IMG/VR virus record: IMGVR_UViG_3300037258_000061
Coordinates: 1 to 50,445 of that record
DNA length: 50,445 bases
From: a virus
Reading direction: 5' to 3' (one strand)
Notes under the pieces: model-generated
The model's input: only the letters and a program-made list of their open reading frames with translations
What the model was told of the DNA's origin: nothing
The model's database searches: none
Made by a program: the position numbers and the translations under genes
Part shown: piece by piece, positions 2,078 through 39,318 of the stretch
Position numbering within the stretch: the first letter of the stretch is position 1
Layout: each line of letters opens with the position of its first letter

Positions 2078-3034
2078 CTACGGCCCCATCGACCCCCAGG
2101 TTCCCTGCCACTGTGGGCATCCAGCACTAACTCTGAAACGAACCTTCTGCTTAATTGCATCCGTATCGAAGTCGTTGTCGAATGTGGTAGTTTCACGCTC
2201 ACGATTGTAGAATGTGAGAGCCGTGTCCATCTTATCTGCAGTCAAGAACCAACTAGAAGCAGACGTAAAGTAATGGCACTGCATAACATCGAGATTCTCA
2301 GGAAGAATAGAGTTGATCTCGTTGTCAGACGTGTACGGTTTGCCCGGTGAGCCAAGAATCTCACGAGCAATGAAGATTAACTCAGGCGGAATCAATAGAT
2401 GCTTCCAGCGTGATGCAGTTGGAAAGCCTCTATTATCAACCATACGATTTGCCTGGTTGATTGCAAGTTGTAGACCAGCGATTGATAGATCAATATCAGT
2501 CTCTGGACGGTTGGGATAAGTACCAGCAGCAGTGATGATATTGCCCAAACCCGGAGCAATAGCAGTTGCCTGTGAACCACCAAGCAATGCGTGCTGATTG
2601 TAGAACAGCGGATTGCCGTCAAACGTTACGACGTTAGAGCTGAAGCCCTGATTAAAGATGCTCCAAGCAATAACTTCGCGTGTGAAACGAGAGCTGCGAG
2701 CAAGTGTACGAGGACCTTGACGAATAAGACCATACTGGTCATCATCCATCAGTTCCTTTGATGTACGAATGCCCAAGCTATAAGTCAAGTGCAGGAAACG
2801 ATACGAACCGCCCTGAATCATAGCTGTATACTGCGTGGGTGTATTCTCAGGTTTCTCTTGAAGCGGCCCAACACCTGCCATTTCAAGTTCCTGTTCATAC
2901 ATTGCGTCAGATCCCTTTACGTTAAACACCGTAGGGTACTCTTCTGCGCGCTGTTCCATGTCTTGCCAGTCTTTGTAAATCTTCTTAAGACCGGGAGCCA
3001 TGAGCTGATAAAACATTCCGCGTACTTGGCTCAT
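2078..3034 (-). CDS. major capsid protein (HK97 fold, Mu gpT-like)
   Basis: This encodes 318 residues and would form the icosahedral shell. The N-terminal region with an SKELMDDDQYGLI-type segment, the TREVIAW helix and the NPLFYNQHALLG stretch are reminiscent of the Mu-like major head subunit family, which adopts the HK97 fold. Length fits that family. It starts with ATG after a GAGGAT site. The order portal, scaffold, accessory proteins, capsid, terminator is the usual phage head order. The family assignment is by eye; the position makes the capsid role likely. Confidence 0.75.
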   Translation of the reverse strand: MSQVRGMFYQLMAPGLKKIYKDWQDMEQRAEEYPTVFNVKGSDAMYEQELEMAGVGPLQEKPENTPTQYTAMIQGGSYRFLHLTYSLGIRTSKELMDDDQYGLIRQGPRTLARSSRFTREVIAWSIFNQGFSSNVVTFDGNPLFYNQHALLGGSQATAIAPGLGNIITAAGTYPNRPETDIDLSIAGLQLAINQANRMVDNRGFPTASRWKHLLIPPELIFIAREILGSPGKPYTSDNEINSILPENLDVMQCHYFTSASSWFLTADKMDTALTFYNRERETTTFDNDFDTDAIKQKVRFRVSAGCPQWQGTWGSMGP

Positions 3035-3093
3035 TGCTATATCCTCATTTTGAATTTAATTACAAAATTGTTGCTCAGTTATTCAAACTGAGG

Positions 3094-3729
3094 TTAGCTA
3101 AGCTGACGCGCTGCAGTGATGAACTTGCCAATTACATGACCATTGACAAGATTACCATCTACAGAGTCGTAGTCAAGCACCTGAAATACAGTGTTTGTGC
3201 CCGGCGTATCTTTGTTTGCGTCGAGATAGCAAGTTCCACCGGAATCAAACGTAATTCCGTAAGACTTACCAAGCATCTCTAGCAAAGTTGGAATATAATC
3301 TGCAGGCACTGCACCGGCAGAATTATCTACCTGAATGTTAAAACGAGTATCTCCATTTGCAACGAAGAACAAAGTACGTCCATCAATTGCAGGAGTACCC
3401 AAAGCAATGTTAACCGCGTTTGGCTCATTTACAACGTTGCCATAGGTCTGTAGTGCTTTATTTCCAGTTACCTGTTGATAGCCAGGCTGAGGTGCTCCAG
3501 CGCCATCTGTACCAAGATTCTGGCCAAATGAAGATGAGATTCCTGAAATACCAGCCGTGATAGTTGTACCATCCCACTTCTGAATGAAACCCGCACCAGT
3601 AAGTTGAACGGGTACACCACCTAGAAATGTCTGGCCTGCGAGTTCCGGAATTGCTTGAGTACGATCGGTGTTTCCGGAATCCGTTTCGACAGGAAAGACA
3701 GGCGTGTGAACTGCAATATTCGCTGCCAT
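3094..3729 (-). CDS. putative head decoration or stabilisation protein
   Basis: This encodes 211 residues, strongly Gly, Thr, Ala and Asn rich, starting MAANIAVHTPVFPVE after a good AAGGAG site. It contains beta-type segments (TFLGGVPVQLTGAGFIQKWDG) of the sort seen in small capsid-binding proteins of siphophages and podophages. It lies immediately upstream of the major capsid gene, the usual place for a decoration protein. No catalytic motif is visible. A decoration role is an inference from position and composition. Confidence 0.6.
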   Translation of the reverse strand: MAANIAVHTPVFPVETDSGNTDRTQAIPELAGQTFLGGVPVQLTGAGFIQKWDGTTITAGISGISSSFGQNLGTDGAGAPQPGYQQVTGNKALQTYGNVVNEPNAVNIALGTPAIDGRTLFFVANGDTRFNIQVDNSAGAVPADYIPTLLEMLGKSYGITFDSGGTCYLDANKDTPGTNTVFQVLDYDSVDGNLVNGHVIGKFITAARQLS

Positions 3730-14417: not shown

Positions 14418-15050
14418 ATGCCCCACGCATACATCCATTACTTTGTGGATTCAGTGAACGGATTAGCGAAGATACATTTCAGTGCTAGTCAGTTCAAAGC
14501 AAAAGTACATATCAAGAACAAAACCATTTTTACCTGCTGTCTCGCAGGTATGCAACAAATCCCATCGGGAGATAAAATCTGGAACCCCGATACAAAGACG
14601 TGGAATGTACACTCGCAGGTATGGATTACTCTCATGCCATACTATACTGTCGCGCCTGAAGTATACGGCATGGTGACATATGCGACGCGCGCGCAGTGGG
14701 AAGGTTTTATTACTGGCAAAGTTAACTATGATCCCTCGCAGGTATACGCAGACGGGTTTACTCGTACTGCAGTTACAGATGCGGAGAAAGCTGCGCAATT
14801 CTTTGGAACTGCCGCATTTAATAGCGCAGTGTATGCGACCGCGAGCGTTAACAATGACCGCGAGGAGTTGCTATCGTTACTCGGATTGAATAGCTGGGGT
14901 CAGCTTGATACCATTCTCAGTGATAAGAATGGCGCAGCAAAGAAGCTATATCGCAGTGCAGCTATCAAGTACCATCCCGACAAGAATAACGGTGATGGCT
15001 CAAAGATGTCGAAGCTGAATGAATTGTGGGGTATCTATGGCGCCCGCTGA
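14418..15050 (+). CDS. J-domain (DnaJ-like) protein
   Basis: This encodes 210 residues. The C-terminal 65 form a J-domain: LLSLLGL, then KKLYRSAAIKYHPDKN with the HPD tripeptide at 186-188, then KLNELW. J-domains stimulate the ATPase of Hsp70 (DnaK). The N-terminal 140 residues do not resemble the DnaJ Gly/Phe or zinc regions and include a KIWNPDTKTWNVHSQVW stretch; they may recruit a phage client. It overlaps the next gene by 14 bases. A phage J-protein probably redirects host DnaK for replication or assembly; that is inferred. Confidence 0.8.
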   Translation: MPHAYIHYFVDSVNGLAKIHFSASQFKAKVHIKNKTIFTCCLAGMQQIPSGDKIWNPDTKTWNVHSQVWITLMPYYTVAPEVYGMVTYATRAQWEGFITGKVNYDPSQVYADGFTRTAVTDAEKAAQFFGTAAFNSAVYATASVNNDREELLSLLGLNSWGQLDTILSDKNGAAKKLYRSAAIKYHPDKNNGDGSKMSKLNELWGIYGAR

Positions 15051-17226: not shown

Positions 17227-18441
17227 ATGACAAAGAACGCTAACAATGACGTTGCTATGATTGCGTTAAAATGCCAGGGATTAGGATTTCCTGTCTTTTA
17301 CAAACGTAGCGAAACAGGTCCACGTGTAACTACACACTTCTTTACGCAGCAAATGGGATCATCTGCACCACTTAACAAAGTTATAAATAAAGCTGAAGAT
17401 ATCGCATTCGCGTGCGGAGTTCCATCTGTAATGATAACTCGTGTATTAAACGAGATTGCATTTCAAGTCCCGCTTGATCCTGAAGATGTGAAGCTGATTC
17501 CATTCGATGCAGGTATTCATAACTTGATGCTCGAAGCTGTTAAAACTCAACAGCTACCCATAGTTATGGGTCAAACAGTGCAGGGGCAGAACTTCACAGT
17601 AGATTTAGTAGAGCAACCCCACTTACTCATAGCTGGATCAACGGGTGGTGGTAAATCTGTATTTCAGGGCTCAGTTGTATGCGGCTTGCTCCTAGCTAAA
17701 TCTCCCGCTGAATTAGAGATGTATCTAGTCGATACCAAACAACTAGATTTGCCTCTATTCAAAGGTGCAGCGCAAGTTAAGAATATAGTTGATAAGATTG
17801 AGAAAGTTCACGATCTAATCGACAATATGATTCTCAACGTAAGACGGCGCACTGAGAGAATGAAAGGCATAGCCAGGAATATAGCTGAGTATAATGCGCT
17901 GCAAGGTACTTTTATAAATCAGCATCTAGCGCCACCTGCTATCAAGTATAAAGTGGTAGTAATTGACGAACTGGCAGATGTTATTTCACTCGACAAAGAC
18001 TTAGCTGTAAAAGAAGCGGGTGAGATTGAAGCTGGACTGCGCAGCGAGAAACGTACACGCATTGTTAATAAACTTCAGACACTAACTCAAATCTCGCGCG
18101 CATCTGGTATTCACGTTATCGCGGCTACTCAGCGCCCGAGTGTTAAACTTATGTCGGGAGATATCAAAGCTAACTTTCCGATGCGGCTTACTTTCAGACT
18201 CCCAACTTCTGCAGACTCTCGCGTGATATTAGGTGAGGGCGGCGCAGAGAATCTTCTTGGCAAGGGAGATTATCTCTACCAGACTTTTGATATGCCATCC
18301 CCTGTAAGATCGCACGGCGCATATGTAAGTACAACGGACATCGCAAGGATTGTAGATCAATCTCAGATGATAAGGGAGAGTTATGAACAACTCAGAGCAA
18401 CAGCCGATGATGTTAAAGCCGAAACTGAAACTGAAGTATAG
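17227..18441 (+). CDS. FtsK/SpoIIIE-like DNA translocase ATPase
   Basis: This encodes 404 residues. Walker A is GSTGGGKS (137-144), Walker B VVVIDE (243-248), followed by the FtsK signature region HVIAATQRPSV and DIKANFPMRLTFRL, and by VILGEGGAENLLGKGDYLY. The N-terminal 110 residues resemble the FtsK alpha-domain. The membrane anchor and the DNA-reading gamma domain are absent. FtsK motors pump double-stranded DNA as hexamers. An FtsK-type motor in addition to terminase is unusual in a phage of this size. Possible roles: genome segregation, concatemer handling or DNA entry. AGGA precedes the ATG. Confidence 0.85.
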   Translation: MTKNANNDVAMIALKCQGLGFPVFYKRSETGPRVTTHFFTQQMGSSAPLNKVINKAEDIAFACGVPSVMITRVLNEIAFQVPLDPEDVKLIPFDAGIHNLMLEAVKTQQLPIVMGQTVQGQNFTVDLVEQPHLLIAGSTGGGKSVFQGSVVCGLLLAKSPAELEMYLVDTKQLDLPLFKGAAQVKNIVDKIEKVHDLIDNMILNVRRRTERMKGIARNIAEYNALQGTFINQHLAPPAIKYKVVVIDELADVISLDKDLAVKEAGEIEAGLRSEKRTRIVNKLQTLTQISRASGIHVIAATQRPSVKLMSGDIKANFPMRLTFRLPTSADSRVILGEGGAENLLGKGDYLYQTFDMPSPVRSHGAYVSTTDIARIVDQSQMIRESYEQLRATADDVKAETETEV

Positions 18442-25569: not shown

Positions 25570-25886
25570 GTATTCTTAGAAAATCTGTTGACAATCAACC
25601 GTTGTATAAGATTAGACCGGGACAGATAGGTGAAAGAATTAAATTATTTCCCGGCATGGTTTTTCCTGGGGAGGTAGAACTTCTTAACATACCTGAACCA
25701 CATAAACATTGCTTTAATTCTGAAGTAGGAATTGTATTTGGTTCTAGTATTTGGTGGATTTATGATCCAAAACAAAGATTGATGGCCACCCATACTAGAA
25801 TTGCAGGTTTGCTTTGTTCCTGCGGCAGTGTTCTAATGCTTGATAACCCTGACGAGAAAAATGGCATATATCAAACCTCAAGGTAG
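25566..25886 (+). CDS. unknown small protein before the polymerase
   Basis: This encodes 106 residues, starting with GTG at 25566 after GGGAGAG. It is beta-rich, with PGQIGERIKLFPGMVFPGEV. A cupin or barrel-like fold could be imagined, but no motif decides it. Its last 26 bases overlap the polymerase fragment gene. Confidence 0.55.
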   Translation: MSILRKSVDNQPLYKIRPGQIGERIKLFPGMVFPGEVELLNIPEPHKHCFNSEVGIVFGSSIWWIYDPKQRLMATHTRIAGLLCSCGSVLMLDNPDEKNGIYQTSR

Positions 25887-26991
25887 CCCCACTGCAAAAG
25901 TGTGGGTAGTTGTAGAGCAACCGTATCCTCAAGATGCGCAAGCGGGTTACGTCTGGTCTGCGGGATATGGGCGCATGTTTAACTCTATGATGCAGGCCGT
26001 AGGTATACGAGACTACTATGTATTACCACGCCGTCCTGATCTAGATCATCCGGATACCTATACCATAATCGAGACTGATATTAACCAATATCAACCACCA
26101 ATCATTATTCCTATCGAGGAAGCTGGAACATTTTTCTGTCGTGAATTGATTAAGAATGAATTTTCAAAGCGTAAACTCTCTCAAGGAGAGTCTGAGATAT
26201 CAAAGTACGCTGGGTCGATTTTAACATCGCCCTTTTTTAATTACCCACACTACATTATACCAACGCTTGCCCCCGATACTGTGATGAAACAGTATAAGTT
26301 AAAGGATATTGTAACTTACCTCGATTTGGGAAAGGTATCCGATGAACTTACATATTTCACCACCAATGGAACTCTCCAGCCGCTACCAGCGCGCACTCTT
26401 AAATATAACATTACGGAGTTTGACGAACTTATCGGATACCTTGAAACGTTTAGCTCCCACTCCATTTTATCGAATGATATTGAAACTATCTATCCAAAGA
26501 ATAAAAACTCCCAATATTGGGGTCATCCAGGTTTGCCAACTTGCGTTGGCCTCGCTACTTCTAAAAACTTTGGTATATCTTTTGAACTCTTCCAAGGTGA
26601 CGATAAACTTGGAATCAAGAGAACTGCACAACTCTGGAGAAAACTTCAAAGCGTATTCGACCGTGTCGATCAATTAGGACAGAACTTTTTTAACTTTGAT
26701 CTTCCACGTTACGAGATGTTAGGTTTTCGCATTGATAGATTTAGATGTCACGATACACTAATTCGCCAGCATATATTGTGGCCAGAGTTAGAAAAATCGC
26801 TGCAGTTTATGACACGTCAGTACACTCGTGAACCTTATTACAAAGATGAAGGACACGGTTGGTCATTTAAAGATATGCGTAGACTTAAACGCTACAATTG
26901 TCTTGACGTATGTGTAACAATGGAAGTCTTTGAGGCACAGCAAAAAGAGTTTGAGAAACGCCCATACCTACTAGGAGAAAAAACAGCATGA
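25861..26991 (+). CDS. DNA polymerase fragment: UDG-like domain plus 3'-5' exonuclease
   Basis: This encodes 376 residues. Residues 10-160 resemble the uracil-DNA glycosylase-like domain that is fused to some phage family A polymerases (KVWVVVEQPYPQDAQAG, later IIPTLAPDTVM). Residues 200-355 form a DnaQ-type exonuclease: Exo I SNDIETI (Asp206, Glu208), Exo II NFFNFDLPRYE (Asp280), Exo III YNCLD (Tyr345, Asp349). It stops exactly where a normal polymerase would continue into its thumb and palm. The polymerase part is encoded 1.1 kb downstream at 28085. The UDG active-site residues look degenerate. Confidence 0.8.
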   Translation: MAYIKPQGSPTAKVWVVVEQPYPQDAQAGYVWSAGYGRMFNSMMQAVGIRDYYVLPRRPDLDHPDTYTIIETDINQYQPPIIIPIEEAGTFFCRELIKNEFSKRKLSQGESEISKYAGSILTSPFFNYPHYIIPTLAPDTVMKQYKLKDIVTYLDLGKVSDELTYFTTNGTLQPLPARTLKYNITEFDELIGYLETFSSHSILSNDIETIYPKNKNSQYWGHPGLPTCVGLATSKNFGISFELFQGDDKLGIKRTAQLWRKLQSVFDRVDQLGQNFFNFDLPRYEMLGFRIDRFRCHDTLIRQHILWPELEKSLQFMTRQYTREPYYKDEGHGWSFKDMRRLKRYNCLDVCVTMEVFEAQQKEFEKRPYLLGEKTA

Positions 26992-27943: not shown

Positions 27944-28092
27944 GTCAAGAAAGAGATATAAATCTTAAACTCTCAATCTATGAACTTGTTATGGTTCTTG
28001 AACGAATCATGAAAAAAGATACTAGTTTATCATCAGCAACTTCATATAGTATTGTTGAAGAAGCAAGAAAGTTTGCTCGCAAAGATGATTGA
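27940..28092 (+). CDS. 50-residue protein within the polymerase locus
   Basis: This encodes 50 residues, MSQERDINLKLSIYELVMVL then a charged helix. It starts as ATGA on the upstream stop and ends at 28092, eight bases into the polymerase gene, which fits continuous translational coupling across the gap. Its predicted amphipathic helices and size suggest a small binding protein. No family recognised. Confidence 0.6.
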   Translation: MSQERDINLKLSIYELVMVLERIMKKDTSLSSATSYSIVEEARKFARKDD

Positions 28093-29575
28093 ACCCCGCA
28101 TAACTTACGACTATGAGCGAAAGCTCCAAGCTGTCTATAATGAGATAGCTAACAGAGGTATACGTGTCGATGAAACAAGACTTAAAGAAGCTAAAGTTTT
28201 TGTTGATCGAGAAATCCAGAGAAATTTGGCGATTGCTTCTTCTCAGTGGAATATCAAACTTTTTGTTGGTGTGGAGAATGATCCCAACAAAGGTAAAAAG
28301 AAGGGTGATCCCACACTCATTGAATCACAGAATCTTGGTAGTACTTCTGGAGAAAAGAGTTTCCTTAATCTTCTCAAAACACTGGGCTACACAGTTCCAA
28401 AAATAGCTAAACGCAATAGCGAAGGAGAGTATGAGACTAACTATTCGACGGGAGAACTCGCTCTGCAACGAATCTTACGTGATAACCAGTTTGGATACCC
28501 AACTGGTGATCCAGCGATTAAAGCGGTACTTGCTATACGTGAACTTGCTAAGCTCAGATCTTCCTATCTCAACGCAAATTTCTATAGAGATGTTTCATCA
28601 AACTTGTTCTTTCTCAGCCTCTATAATGCAGCAGGAACTCTTACAGGACGTAGATCATCGAGAAAACATACTTTCGGTTTTGGAAACAATGGTCAGAACC
28701 ACCCAAAACATTCTAGAATTGCCGAGCAGTGGAGAAGATGTCTAGTAGCTAGACCAGGAAATATCTTCTTAATGGTCGATCAGAAGTCTGCAGAGGAATG
28801 GCCTGTCTGCGCTCTATCTCAAAATCATCTTGGAATTGAGCAGATGACTAAAGGTATTAACCGCCACATCTGGCGTGCGTCATTTATCTTTAACATCGCA
28901 GAAGGTGCTCGCAGCAAGAAAGAATGGAAGGAATCGATCGAGTATTATCTGGGAAAGAAGACCGGACATGCAAATAACTATAACATGCAGCCACCTAGAA
29001 TGTCTGAGTCTCTTATTCAAGAAGGACATTATGTTAGCGTTGATGCGTGTGCAGGGATGCTTGCGCGGCTTAATAGTTTGGAGCCTAACATACGAGGTGT
29101 TTTCCATAAATGGGTGCGCGATACTATTAACCATTGCAGAGTTCTCAAAACTCCGTTCGGGCGTGAAAGACAATTTCTCGGATTGCGTCCTAACGATGCG
29201 AACAATAAGATATTTAATGAAGCATTCGCTTTCGTACCGCAGTCGTCCGTTGGCGATAATACTGGTTTTGCAGTTGCTCATATCGAAAACAGTGATCTTG
29301 ATCCAGTCTGTCGCTATATTGTACAAGAAGGCCACGATTCGATCGTTCAAGACATCCCGGACAACCTTACGTGCCTTGATATTGGTCTTTCTAATGCTGT
29401 CGCAGCCTTTGATAGAAAAATGCGATTTGACAATGGAATCGAAGTTCAAGTCCCTGTGGAAGCGGAAATTGGCTACGATTTTAACACTACCGTAACTGTG
29501 GACGATTTGTCCTATGAAGGTTTGCGTATCGCAAAGCAAAAACTGCTCGAAGAGATAAATAAGAAAGCTGCCTAA
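28085..29575 (+). CDS. DNA polymerase I (family A) catalytic fragment
   Basis: This encodes 496 residues. It begins ERKLQAVYNEIANRGIRVDE (11-30), the usual link between exonuclease and palm. GTLTGRRSS (184-192) precedes motif A, FLMVDQKSAEEWPV (228-241, Asp232). KKTGHANNYNM (291-301) is motif B, FAFVPQSSVGD (381-391) follows, and motif C is EGHDSIV (415-421, Asp418), with Ser in place of the bacterial Glu, as in many phage enzymes. It must use the separate exonuclease fragment or work without proofreading. It overlaps the upstream gene and is followed by the helicase gene (TAATG). Confidence 0.85.
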   Translation: MIEPRITYDYERKLQAVYNEIANRGIRVDETRLKEAKVFVDREIQRNLAIASSQWNIKLFVGVENDPNKGKKKGDPTLIESQNLGSTSGEKSFLNLLKTLGYTVPKIAKRNSEGEYETNYSTGELALQRILRDNQFGYPTGDPAIKAVLAIRELAKLRSSYLNANFYRDVSSNLFFLSLYNAAGTLTGRRSSRKHTFGFGNNGQNHPKHSRIAEQWRRCLVARPGNIFLMVDQKSAEEWPVCALSQNHLGIEQMTKGINRHIWRASFIFNIAEGARSKKEWKESIEYYLGKKTGHANNYNMQPPRMSESLIQEGHYVSVDACAGMLARLNSLEPNIRGVFHKWVRDTINHCRVLKTPFGRERQFLGLRPNDANNKIFNEAFAFVPQSSVGDNTGFAVAHIENSDLDPVCRYIVQEGHDSIVQDIPDNLTCLDIGLSNAVAAFDRKMRFDNGIEVQVPVEAEIGYDFNTTVTVDDLSYEGLRIAKQKLLEEINKKAA

Positions 29576-30894
29576 TGCCCCACAGAGCACTCTCAAAGAA
29601 CTGGATACTTGCGTATAATGAAGCTATATCTAAAATCTCGGAAGCGCCGGGACAGTATAACATCTGGGCTGCTATTGCAGTTGTATCTGCTGTGTTGAAG
29701 AACCACGTAAGAATGGCACGCGGCCCATATGTCGTAAATCCTAACCAATACATAATTCTGGTAGGTCCACCCGGCGTTGGTAAAGGCACTGCGATTCATC
29801 CTGCGTTTGATATTCCAAAGAAACTAGGTTTAATTAACACAATCTCTGATCGTGTAACTGCGCAGAAGATAGTTGAGAGGTTATCCAATGGATTTGACGC
29901 GCCTCCAAAGATTATATACGGTACTACAAACGGTCATGGACCCTTACCAACTAATACTGTCGCAGGAGGACATCTCTTTAATACTTCAAGCACTCCAACT
30001 ATTGTTGCTACAAGAGAATCAGCAGCAACAATTATGTCCACCGAACTCCAAACCCTCCTCTCCAGTTCAGAATGGATGACGCAATTTCTCTGCGATGCTT
30101 GGGATAGAAAAGACTTTGAATATGATACCAAGAATAAAGGAACTCACATAGTTAAAGATATGTGTGTTTCTATGATCGGTGCTTGTGTTCCAGCCTATAT
30201 TCAGAGCATTAATAAGAGTACGGAAGCTGCAGTCAATGGTGGATTCACAGCTCGTGCAGTGTTTGTGTATGCAGATAAAAAAGCCCAAGATATCGTATGG
30301 CCCAGGAATCTAGAAGAAACTATGGGGGCAGAGTTTATCAAGAAGCTTGAAGAAGATTTAGTTTCCATCTCAAATCTAGAGGGCGAATTTACATTCAGTC
30401 CCGAGGCTAAAAATCTCTTTGAGACGTTTTACAAAACTTCACCTATAGTTCGCCAGCACGAAGCAGATTCAGAAGTCATGCTATACTTCAAATCACGCGT
30501 GCATGTTCACTTTTTCAAAGTGGCTATGGCATTTAGCGCTGCACGAGATGACTCTCGAATAATAGATCGGATTGATACTCTAGTATCTATTGATCTATTA
30601 AAACAGATTCAACAGAATCTAGATCGTGCATTTAGAGGAGTTGGCAACTCTCCTCTTGCAGATGCTACCCAAAAAGTTCTAGGTTATATTGAACGCATGG
30701 GCGCAGCTAATCGCAGACAGATTCTGAAACACAACTACATGCACGTCACTAATGACGATCTATCCAGGGTTCTATTCACGCTCTGTGAGATGGGAACTGT
30801 AAGAGAAGATTCAATCGGTGGCGAAAAAATCTTTGTCTACTGTGAAACTCAAAAGACAGTAGATACAAACGTCAAACAAATCAATAAGACATAG
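29575..30894 (+). CDS. DUF3987-like replicative helicase/primase-type ATPase
   Basis: This encodes 439 residues. Walker A is GPPGVGKGT (64-72). The layout, with an N-terminal helical region (AAIAVVSAVLKNHVRM), LQTLLSSSEWM and a long helical C-terminus ending in a winged-helix-like segment (ATQKVLGYIERMGAANRRQILKH), resembles the DUF3987 group of phage and plasmid replication ATPases. It starts within the polymerase stop codon. It is the only helicase candidate in the window and so probably unwinds the fork. The family is by eye. Confidence 0.7.
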   Translation: MPHRALSKNWILAYNEAISKISEAPGQYNIWAAIAVVSAVLKNHVRMARGPYVVNPNQYIILVGPPGVGKGTAIHPAFDIPKKLGLINTISDRVTAQKIVERLSNGFDAPPKIIYGTTNGHGPLPTNTVAGGHLFNTSSTPTIVATRESAATIMSTELQTLLSSSEWMTQFLCDAWDRKDFEYDTKNKGTHIVKDMCVSMIGACVPAYIQSINKSTEAAVNGGFTARAVFVYADKKAQDIVWPRNLEETMGAEFIKKLEEDLVSISNLEGEFTFSPEAKNLFETFYKTSPIVRQHEADSEVMLYFKSRVHVHFFKVAMAFSAARDDSRIIDRIDTLVSIDLLKQIQQNLDRAFRGVGNSPLADATQKVLGYIERMGAANRRQILKHNYMHVTNDDLSRVLFTLCEMGTVREDSIGGEKIFVYCETQKTVDTNVKQINKT

Positions 30895-30903
30895 GGAGAA
30901 GAG

Positions 30904-31689
30904 ATGCCGTCAAATCCACCATTTAATGATGATTTTGAAGTTCAACCTGCAGATGCAGATTTGTGGGCCAAAGTTGAAGAAGATAAAAAGCAAGAAAAGA
31001 TTGACGAAGGTGGTGTGCAGCCAGAAGTTGGTCCTATAGCTACTTTCAAGCAAGTAGAAAATGCAATGGTGAATGTCGAAGCGGGCGAAGATAACATCGT
31101 CGGTTTAATTGAGTTAGGTGTTGGTCTGGAGGCAGTTGGTGACAATATCATTGTGCTTATTGATAACTATCGCTCTGGTTATGAATGCACTGCTTGCAAA
31201 GGGACGGGTAAATTACGGAGGTTTGTTCGGTGTGTCTGCGATCCGGATATTCCAGATTCTGATCTGGACTTCCCTCGCGGTACTCGCAATCGCTTTAAGG
31301 CTGTCTGTGAGGCTTGCTCTGGCGAATATCTCACCGTGCGGATAGATGACGTAGTTACTTGCCATAAATGCAATGGTAGAGGAGCAACTCTAGTTATCCC
31401 CGAAAATGCTCAATCTCTGCCAACTACAGGAATTATTCTAAGTATGGGTCCAGAGGTTACTCGCAAGGGAATTGCTATAAACAAGCGAGTTATCTGCACT
31501 CCGCACGCAGGTGTATTTCTTCCGATGAAGGGAAATATTCCTGTGAAAGTTTATCGCCAGCATGAACCTCTCTGCAATATGTATAACATTAAAAAAGATG
31601 GAACTGCAGATAAGGAAAAACCTGGCGAATTAGTTACAAATCAATTCGTTGAACATGATACACCGCTTGGCACACAACACAATGCTTAG
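30904..31689 (+). CDS. GroES-like co-chaperonin with DnaJ-type zinc insertion
   Basis: This encodes 261 residues. From about residue 78 a GroES-like barrel begins (VGDNIIVLIDNY) and resumes at 162 (LVIPENAQSLPTTGIILSMGP, VICTPHAGVFLPMKGN, VKVYRQHEPLC). Between the two, where GroES has its mobile loop, lie eight cysteines: CTACKGTG (95-102), Cys110, Cys112, CEACSG (135-140) and CHKCNGRG (153-160), a DnaJ-like CxxCxGxG module for two zinc ions. The N-terminal 75 residues are acidic and unrelated. It likely cooperates with GroEL or a chaperone in capsid folding. GGGAG precedes the ATG. Confidence 0.75.
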   Translation: MPSNPPFNDDFEVQPADADLWAKVEEDKKQEKIDEGGVQPEVGPIATFKQVENAMVNVEAGEDNIVGLIELGVGLEAVGDNIIVLIDNYRSGYECTACKGTGKLRRFVRCVCDPDIPDSDLDFPRGTRNRFKAVCEACSGEYLTVRIDDVVTCHKCNGRGATLVIPENAQSLPTTGIILSMGPEVTRKGIAINKRVICTPHAGVFLPMKGNIPVKVYRQHEPLCNMYNIKKDGTADKEKPGELVTNQFVEHDTPLGTQHNA

Positions 31690-37617: not shown

Positions 37618-38020
37618 CGTATTCCTCCCAGTTAACTCCAAGTTCACTAGCCATGAATCTTTCAATACGAGTTGCCGTTTGATGCTGCTTAAAATAGGGA
37701 GCGTTTGGATCATCGCCAGGTTCGTCACACTCGCCGTGCATTCCTTTTGCACGTTCGTCTTCAAACTTGATATCAAAATCAGTTACAGCTTGCTCTTCAA
37801 CTCCATCAAGCCAGCAGAGGAGAGCTTCAACTTGTTCATGCACTGATACGAGCAAATTATACTTATAATTACCCATATCGCTAATGCGAATATGAAGAGT
37901 TGTGTAACGCCAAAACCAGTCGCCAACTGTGGGATAACGTTGGCAGCGATGTGCGATGAATCTAATACTAAGTGCAACTAAATCCTTGCGCGAACCTTTT
38001 CTAACTGGCATTAGATCCAT
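37595..38020 (-). CDS. conserved phage protein of unknown function
   Basis: This encodes 141 residues with an internal acidic stretch and the end HQTATRIERFMASELGVNWEEYDAAV, which I recall as a conserved ending in uncharacterised phage proteins. An in-frame ATG nine bases later is an alternative start. It overlaps the ATP-grasp gene upstream and the signal-peptide protein downstream. It may work with the ATP-grasp enzyme. Confidence 0.6.
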   Translation of the reverse strand: MDLMPVRKGSRKDLVALSIRFIAHRCQRYPTVGDWFWRYTTLHIRISDMGNYKYNLLVSVHEQVEALLCWLDGVEEQAVTDFDIKFEDERAKGMHGECDEPGDDPNAPYFKQHQTATRIERFMASELGVNWEEYDAAVNAL

Positions 38021-39318
38021 CCCATCTCTTTGAGTTTGAAAAATCTCTTCATAATACTTTTTTGTAAATCTGTTCGGTGTTGCATGTCAGGAATCTCAAT
38101 CTTTTCAATGCGAGCATCTAATTGAGCGAATGCACCTTGAGGAGTTGCGCTAACTTCAATAGGACAACAAATCAATCCATTGACGCCAGCGCATACTAGT
38201 TCCGCACTCTTGCCCGAGCCCTGCATCATTACATCATAAAAATAGGTCTTCATTAACTCTTCTTCTGAGTTAATATCAATACCTTTAACTGGAATACCTT
38301 TAACTTTAGCTAACCTGATTTCTGTTGGGTAAGGTGGTATAGTGATTCTTGCCGATACGCCATACTCCGCTTTCCACTTTTGTTCAGGAATTCCACCAGT
38401 TGCCACCCGCTTGAGAAGTTCGCCAAAATCACCACCATACATATTAAACAAAGTAGCTGAAGCATCATAGCCGAAACGAGGAGTCCATTCCAGACCATAT
38501 AGTTTTTCCTCCGTTGCTATCGTATTTAGATCGATCATGCCACGATAACCGAGAGCAGAAAGTACCTCACGAGCTTTAGCTAGACCTTCTGTAAATACAC
38601 GCGAGCCAGGATTTAGAGTAAACACTAAATTACCTGAACATCCTGTATTTGGGCCTATTCCGTCATTCATAAACTTTTTTTCTTCTAGTGTGCAATTCAA
38701 GCAGTAGAAGTCATTTCCGTTAAACCATCCTTCTACGGAAACTTCAATACCGGGCTTAAATTCTTGAAGAATGAAGGGAGAACCTTTAGATAGAAGAAAT
38801 AGTTTATCAATATACTCCAGCATATCAGTATCAGAATAGCTAACATAAGTTGTCCCAGCATCCTGATCTTGCCCACCGTTTGGTTTGTAGACGTATCTTT
38901 TTTTGGTTTCCTTGATAAAAGATTTCGCAGTGGATACATCTGTGAACACCTCCCAGGCGGGCACATCTATACCAGCGTTCTCCATCATTTCTATGCCGAA
39001 GAGTCTATCTTCTTCGAGCATTTTGTGAGTTGAACCATCACCGATTGTAGGTGTTTGGTTGGAACTATGATCGGCTTGTCTCTCTCTTCCAGTAAGATCA
39101 AACACTGAGACATCATACTTAGAGTAATCGGGAAATCCGATGTTTTCATCACTCTTCCTGTTGTCATGAAACTTAACAAATGGAGTGGGAGCTATGCCTT
39201 GCATTACATCAGCATATTTGTTCATACTAAGGTAATAGTCTACAGAATGGCCCTGCATTCGCATAACCGCAGCAAACCAAGCACCATAGCCTGCATAACT
39301 TGACAAGGCAATCTTCAT
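38011..39318 (-). CDS. PurD-like ATP-grasp ligase
   Basis: This encodes 435 residues with an ATP-grasp fold close to phosphoribosylamine-glycine ligase: KPNGGQ (145-150), LQEFKPGIEVSVEGWF (184-199), GPNTGCSGNLVF (222-233), MIDLN (261-265) and LEWTPRFGYDASATL (276-290), the counterpart of the PurD EFNxRFGDPE region. Such enzymes join a carboxylate to an amine through an acyl phosphate. It lies in the tail operon, not with nucleotide genes, so a role in modifying a virion component, DNA base or small molecule is more likely than purine synthesis. The substrate is unknown. Confidence 0.75.
   Translation of the reverse strand: MKIALSSYAGYGAWFAAVMRMQGHSVDYYLSMNKYADVMQGIAPTPFVKFHDNRKSDENIGFPDYSKYDVSVFDLTGRERQADHSSNQTPTIGDGSTHKMLEEDRLFGIEMMENAGIDVPAWEVFTDVSTAKSFIKETKKRYVYKPNGGQDQDAGTTYVSYSDTDMLEYIDKLFLLSKGSPFILQEFKPGIEVSVEGWFNGNDFYCLNCTLEEKKFMNDGIGPNTGCSGNLVFTLNPGSRVFTEGLAKAREVLSALGYRGMIDLNTIATEEKLYGLEWTPRFGYDASATLFNMYGGDFGELLKRVATGGIPEQKWKAEYGVSARITIPPYPTEIRLAKVKGIPVKGIDINSEEELMKTYFYDVMMQGSGKSAELVCAGVNGLICCPIEVSATPQGAFAQLDARIEKIEIPDMQHRTDLQKSIMKRFFKLKEMGWI

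Follow-up and report, generated by a model that had tools for sequence, protein, structure and literature searches.

The window analyzed here is the whole IMG/VR virus record IMGVR_UViG_3300037258_000061 (50,445 bases), whose genes include a terminase, a portal protein, a family A DNA polymerase and a DUF3987-type primase. One further gene encodes a protein, hereafter Zn-GroES, which we assign almost without reservation to the GroES/Cpn10 co-chaperonin family, with a DnaJ-type zinc module inserted into the mobile loop (Table 1). The N-terminal extension (residues 1-73) is unconserved in alignments, except for a short segment ahead of the barrel, and received low confidence in the first AlphaFold2 model. 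The segment that follows, GLEAVGDNIIVLIDNYRSG (residues 74-92), aligns with the PLxDRVxVxR stretch of GroES, and AlphaFold2 models place a strand near residues 81-86. The second cysteine motif of the module reads CxC rather than CxxC in the window. Both of its cysteines are invariant in the close lineage and the motif is missing from relatives with four cysteines. The third motif lacks the second glycine of CxxCxGxG in the window. Its C135 is invariant in the close lineage, and the position of the partner cysteine moves in the relatives L085-L088.

Table 1. Zn-GroES, its sequence parts and associated genes in the window (aa, amino acids; AF2, AlphaFold2).
Feature	Position	Strand	Evidence
Zn-GroES, full gene (261 aa); GroES/Cpn10 barrel carrying the DnaJ-type zinc module at its mobile loop	30904..31689	+	ATG start, TAG stop; Pfam, hhalign, 38-member profile, AF2, Foldseek
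N-terminal extension, residues 1-73	30904..31122	+	Alignments; AF2
First strand of the barrel plus ascending mobile-loop limb, residues 74-92	31123..31179	+	hhalign, per-residue alignment, AF2
DnaJ-type zinc module, residues 93-160 (68 residues, eight cysteines)	31180..31383	+	PF00684, 1exk match, 62 distinct inserts compared
Cysteine motif 1, CTACKGTG (C95, C98)	31186..31209	+	Sequence; invariant in alignments A5 and A8
Cysteine motif 2, CVC (C110, C112)	31231..31239	+	Sequence; alignment of close lineage
Cysteine motif 3, CEAC (C135, C138; CEACSGEY)	31306..31317	+	Sequence; alignment of close lineage
Cysteine motif 4, CHKCNGRG (C153, C156)	31360..31383	+	Sequence; invariant in alignment A8
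L163-V164-I165, then P166; counterpart of E. coli GroES I25-V26-L27	31390..31398	+	hhalign and per-residue alignment
Residues 166-230, remaining GroES barrel, roof hairpin missing	31399..31593	+	hhalign; per-residue alignment; AF2 strands
DUF3987-type primase, directly upstream of Zn-GroES	29575..30894	+	PHROG 14296, E 3e-34; synteny
Family A DNA polymerase, polymerase part, second gene upstream of Zn-GroES	28052..29575	+	PHROG 17; synteny
J-domain protein with HPD motif, C-terminal J domain (14940-15029)	14418..15050	+	PF00226, E 5.4e-5, 23.7 bits (cut-off 27.8)

Taken by itself, the sequence of the window protein is suggestive of a GroES with a DnaJ-type insert. A Pfam scan of the full length finds Cpn10 only at residues 162-204 (13.6 bits, E 0.069), and DnaJ_CXXCXGXG with 20.4 bits (E 6.3e-4; cut-off 32.7 bits). 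With the insert excised in silico, Cpn10 is matched over profile positions 3-74 of 93 with 20.2 bits (E 6.1e-4; cut-off 21.1). The same type of scan finds no J domain (PF00226) in the protein. The identification is secure because profiles of the homologues match both GroES and the DnaJ zinc domain, unlike the weak matches of the single protein. Searched against PDB sequences, a profile of 38 members matches chloroplast Cpn20 best (1.6e-15), GroES at 4.2e-11 and eight more co-chaperonin sequences at 6.2e-7 or below, as well as the zinc domain of E. coli DnaJ (1exk, E 1.1e-3) and an Anti-TRAP protein. Pfam Cpn10 (PF00166) is matched by 33 of the 38 members (best 4.8e-10), the PHROG family co-chaperonin GroES by 26 and DnaJ_CXXCXGXG (PF00684) by 25. 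Full-length MAFFT alignment against plain GroES misplaces the first strand owing to the insert, and a barrel-only alignment was used instead. The barrel-only profile matches GroES in hhalign with a probability of 96% (E 3.3e-9). The matches in Pfam, PHROG, PDB and Foldseek are independent of the cellular GroES sequences that entered hhalign, the alignments and the tree.

Structure prediction points to the same fold. A first AlphaFold2 run with 11 close relatives in the alignment was poor (predicted local distance difference test, pLDDT, of 48). The 38-member alignment yielded a mean pLDDT of 78, with most barrel blocks at 82-97. The best 34 Foldseek matches of this model in PDB are all co-chaperonins (Cpn10, GroES, gp31 and chloroplast Cpn20-type chains), and the top seven have a probability of 1.00. 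Every named match among the top 50 listed for the viral models of BFVD is a GroES or chaperonin. An earlier note on this DNA, made from the sequence without database searches, had proposed a GroES-like barrel around a DnaJ-type module of eight cysteines at the mobile-loop position. The barrel is borne out by the profile, the AlphaFold2 modeling that the note had called for and the PDB matches, and the module (C95-C156) by PF00684 and 1exk. The proposed position agrees with the alignments described below.

Zn-GroES represents a broad viral family rather than a one-off. The window protein as a direct query retrieves no relative at useful E-values in IMG/VR, GTDB genomes or INPHARED, and the window primase retrieves none in IMG/VR. 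Relatives of the terminase led to 43 virus records, seven of which encode a homologue at 39-44% identity, all on records of at least 34 kb. Further members came from an alignment-based search and from DNA patterns spanning either junction of the insert. The C-terminal junction pattern consists of CxxCxGxG and, after two residues, a run of three hydrophobic ones, P and D/E. It finds 65 loci in IMG/VR, and 52 of these show the zinc-module GroES architecture. The remaining 13 are unrelated or chance matches (e.g., L119, the helicase L143 and L153) and were excluded. L143 is itself a 683-residue helicase-like open reading frame, SNF2-type by eye, with a DnaJ-like cysteine pair within the ATPase part (CKFCKGKP...CLKCKGKG). 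The N-terminal junction pattern finds 43 loci. Of these, 21 had been found before, and each of the 22 new ones encodes a zinc-module GroES protein. We consider this convergence of two unrelated sequence patterns on the same proteins the strongest argument against chance. The family totals about 75 contigs besides the window, with 62 distinct inserts, and all homologues found are uncharacterized. Thus neither outcome that the earlier note had named as refuting it, a lack of the GroES fold around the cysteines or many characterized phage homologues, was observed. In a barrel tree with few plain sequences and long branches, one supported branch splits the 62 zinc-bearing barrels from six plain ones.

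The architecture was seen in none of 50,697 annotated phage records searched with seven different queries. Named-phage searches with L080, L118, L109, L133, L134 and L163 retrieve plain GroES, other zinc proteins or nothing. The architecture was likewise not found in plasmids with one query, and cellular genomes scanned with patterns of the window's clade only gave no cellular member. A match in a huge phage (H33) is a different cysteine-repeat protein and not a GroES. Another huge phage (L170, LR745206.1) encodes an open reading frame at 559-1986 with an unknown domain, followed by a C-terminal tail of more than 10 tandem CxxCxGxG-like repeats. The 'uncultured virus' GroES entries among the BFVD matches listed have at most 153 residues, and many of them presumably stem from the 2017 viral chaperonin survey (Marine et al.). 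A search of open papers on GroES with zinc, the mobile loop, the DnaJ zinc domain and phages found no such protein. The earlier impression that no protein of this layout had been described thus holds for the literature and the named phages searched. We regard zinc-module GroES as a new variant of a known co-chaperonin, and do not claim a certain first description.

The position of the insert bears directly on how the protein could grip GroEL. In alignments to E. coli GroES, the insert maps to roughly residues 16-24. The family alignment retains both D8-R9 and the first strand of that protein, and all 62 members have an aspartate in place of K15. In GroES, I25-V26-L27 (in GGIVL) are the residues contacting GroEL. 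Across 62 members this segment is matched mostly by [IL]-[VI]-[IV], with P as the next residue in 90%. The hydrophobic segment comes right after the fourth cysteine motif (in the window, L163-V164-I165-P), and is preceded in relatives mostly by GG or by pairs of G/A/S/T. The C-terminal junction pattern itself selected for the hydrophobic run and P; the N-terminal pattern did not. GG with a hydrophobic run is nonetheless present in 17 of the 22 new loci retrieved by the N-terminal pattern alone. As the contact segment was unselected there, the grip on GroEL is most likely kept, with the zinc module sitting beside it on the N-terminal limb of the mobile loop. A changed or replaced partner interface, as had been suggested, would therefore apply in part. 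The module adjoins the contact, but replacement is at odds with the hydrophobic segment kept after motif 4.

The roof hairpin (GroES residues 48-56) is gapped in 61 of the 62 members. This hairpin is not a defining feature of co-chaperonins, because the accepted co-chaperonin gp31 of phage T4 also lacks a roof (PMC6318259). The exception with the roof position filled is L129 (protein at 2898-3578, minus strand), which carries two extra CxxC motifs (KCLQCDGTG ... LCPTCCGKG), so that its barrel has another zinc-module insertion, at the site of the roof hairpin. L092/L123, L164 and L166 have tens of extra residues at the roof-loop position, where others show the deletion.

The zinc module varies across the family in an ordered way. 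The 62 distinct inserts contain four (n=7), eight (n=54) or nine (n=1) cysteines, and never five, six or seven. In DnaJ, two zinc sites are nested, with motifs 1 and 4 forming Center I and motifs 2 and 3 forming the other site. Members with four cysteines are scattered among those with eight in the barrel tree. Because they occupy separate places, two motifs were lost together, as a unit, several independent times. Since the first and last motif define the edges of the insert, their retention is partly built in, and the information lies in the even cysteine counts and in the loss of two motifs together. Both fit nested DnaJ sites and suggest that the outer site is the one that cannot be spared. 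For DnaJ, Center I has been reported to be essential in substrate binding, and Center II in the interaction with DnaK (PMC4428491). Retention of the outer pair hence suggests that the module serves at its core to bind clients. Zinc would very likely be bound in two DnaJ-like sites. The span from first to last cysteine ranges from 21 to 95 residues, with one-site modules of about 30 residues and modules of 74 residues within the same clades.

Zn-GroES combines features of several known systems. The family shares the barrel fold, the strand order, the core size and the GroEL-contact segment after the mobile loop with GroES/Cpn10 (PF00166), but differs by the zinc module in the mobile loop, N- and C-terminal extensions and the lack of a roof hairpin. 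Helicobacter pylori HspA is also a metal-binding GroES, but its metal site is a C-terminal His/Cys tail rather than a DnaJ-type module in the loop. T4 gp31, which is among the top structural matches, is likewise a phage-encoded GroES with an enlarged mobile loop and no roof. Its loops have 22 residues compared to 16, its chamber is 8% larger and it folds the capsid protein (PMC6318259); however, the gp31 loop has no zinc module. Plain phage GroES proteins include groS of vir526 (BK063670) and the GroES of DSL-LC05, both without loop cysteines, whereas the window protein has 68 additional residues there. The vir526 groS is the best named-phage match to the window protein (39.7% over residues 161-218) and aligns on both flanks of the insert, with nothing at the insert site. 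The module itself resembles the DnaJ cysteine-rich domain (PF00684, 1exk) in its four CxxCxGxG-type motifs and at the profile level (E 1.1e-3). In DnaJ this domain sits between the J domain and the client-binding domain, whereas in the window protein it sits within a GroES barrel. Chloroplast BSD2 (PF25436) also has a DnaJ-type zinc domain without a J domain and matters for Rubisco assembly (PMC4428491), but it is a separate small protein and not part of a co-chaperonin. The BSD2_CRD profile matches 11 of the 38 members.

Polymerase and primase are conserved neighbors of Zn-GroES in the window's branch, which has the gene order polymerase-primase-ZnGroES, and a GH108-type endolysin gene comes next in the window. 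In the other branch the gene is located just upstream of the terminase (ZnGroES-terminase-portal). This arrangement resembles that of vir526, where groS precedes terminase and portal. The window and vir526 have the primase, terminase and portal families in common. The family A DNA polymerase of the window is split, as in relatives, into an exonuclease part (25840-26991, plus strand) and the polymerase part of Table 1, with small open reading frames in between. An ATP-grasp/GARS-like protein (38011-39318, minus strand) lies among the tail-side genes and is about 45-57% identical in relatives, where it is downstream of Zn-GroES. The window also encodes an FtsK/SpoIIIE-like ATPase (17227-18441, plus strand; PHROG 1358, E 1.4e-64).

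None of the 37 family-bearing records, which may be fragments, encodes a GroEL (Cpn60). A host chaperonin would therefore be needed, and Zn-GroES probably works with the GroEL of the host. The separate J-domain protein that had been noted at 14418 is supported by its PF00226 match. No zinc domain is recognized in it, and it is a possible partner of Zn-GroES through host DnaK. J-domain proteins occur in 16 of the 37 records. These include the window and, in its close lineage, seven of the other nine records. A pairing of the second zinc site with the J-domain protein was checked and is unsupported, as the records of the four-cysteine members L118, L137, L164 and L166 still have a J-domain protein.

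We suggest that Zn-GroES is a phage co-chaperonin that would form a GroES-like heptamer and cap host GroEL. Such a ring would present seven zinc modules at the junction of lid and chamber. The modules may hold unfolded phage proteins, the capsid protein or some different large client, and deliver them to the GroEL cavity or keep them there, in the manner proposed for the zinc region of DnaJ or BSD2. The open roof and the longer loop could enlarge the chamber as in gp31. On balance we favor this combination of capping with a module that holds or hands over clients. For the module taken separately, client holding or hand-over as its main activity falls slightly short of an even chance. Several observations weigh against the proposal. 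The zinc module is predicted with less confidence than the barrel (pLDDT 51-72 over most blocks), and Foldseek E-values are all above 0.001. Seven modules pointing into the chamber would take up much of its space, and they may face outward instead. Within the window's branch, the gene has polymerase and primase as neighbors and not head genes. More than half of the records (21/37) show no J-domain protein, so that a link to DnaK is not general.

The module could instead be a stiff, folded spacer that raises the lid above GroEL or keeps the loops apart, creating a larger cage for a large phage protein without touching clients itself. This explanation is somewhat unlikely. The larger chamber of gp31, with its longer loops and missing roof (PMC6318259), the absence of the roof hairpin from nearly all members and the terminase/portal neighborhood in one branch would fit such a spacer. 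Yet a spacer has no need for the conserved glycine pattern of DnaJ (CxxCxGxG), and module length is not kept within clades. A role as an adaptor is unlikely as well. The module would recruit either host DnaK, aided by the J-domain protein of the phage, or a different host factor, and so link DnaK and GroEL or steer GroEL to phage clients. The J-domain protein of the window and most of its lineage, the lack of a recognized zinc domain in that of the window and the reported part of DnaJ Center II in the DnaK interaction (PMC4428491) are consistent with an adaptor, but members without the inner cysteine pair share their records with J-domain proteins in the four cases named above, and most records show no J-domain protein.

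The remaining explanations have little in their favor. The CxxC pairs might sense oxidation or exchange disulfides and thereby toggle capping, which we consider very unlikely, as the sequence gives nothing specific for it and the glycine pattern fits structural zinc. A GroES-like barrel reused outside chaperoning, e.g., in regulation or as an alcohol dehydrogenase (ADH)-like domain, is hardly credible. The zinc part has weak matches to Q-like antitermination proteins and Anti-TRAP, and ADH_N is found in two of the 38 members (best E 1.1e-3). Against this stand the predominance of Cpn10 and PHROG co-chaperonin GroES matches and the retained GroEL-contact segment. No dehydrogenase family is among the matches and no dehydrogenase domain follows the barrel. 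The structural zinc lobe of ADH sits elsewhere in the fold. Both the Q-like antitermination and the ADH (PF08240) readings were considered and dropped. An annotation or assembly artefact joining two genes is refuted by the relatives, as a single open frame with the same layout recurs in about 75 other contigs.

GroES is highly constrained and the mobile loop is the part that grips GroEL. A virus family tolerating a zinc domain at this site indicates that nature can re-engineer the lid of the chaperonin. The family offers a direct test case for a possible contribution of co-chaperonins to client capture, as well as a natural design for altering what GroEL folds. It also provides a likely function for a gene common to many uncultivated phages and found in no named phage searched. 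Tentatively, these proteins may constitute a widespread class of viral co-chaperonins, in which the zinc client module of Hsp40 is fused into the lid of Hsp60 and which, with the phage J-domain protein, joins the DnaK and GroEL pathways. If true, one ring would both capture unfolded clients and close the chamber of host GroEL, and the two pathways would be joined during infection.
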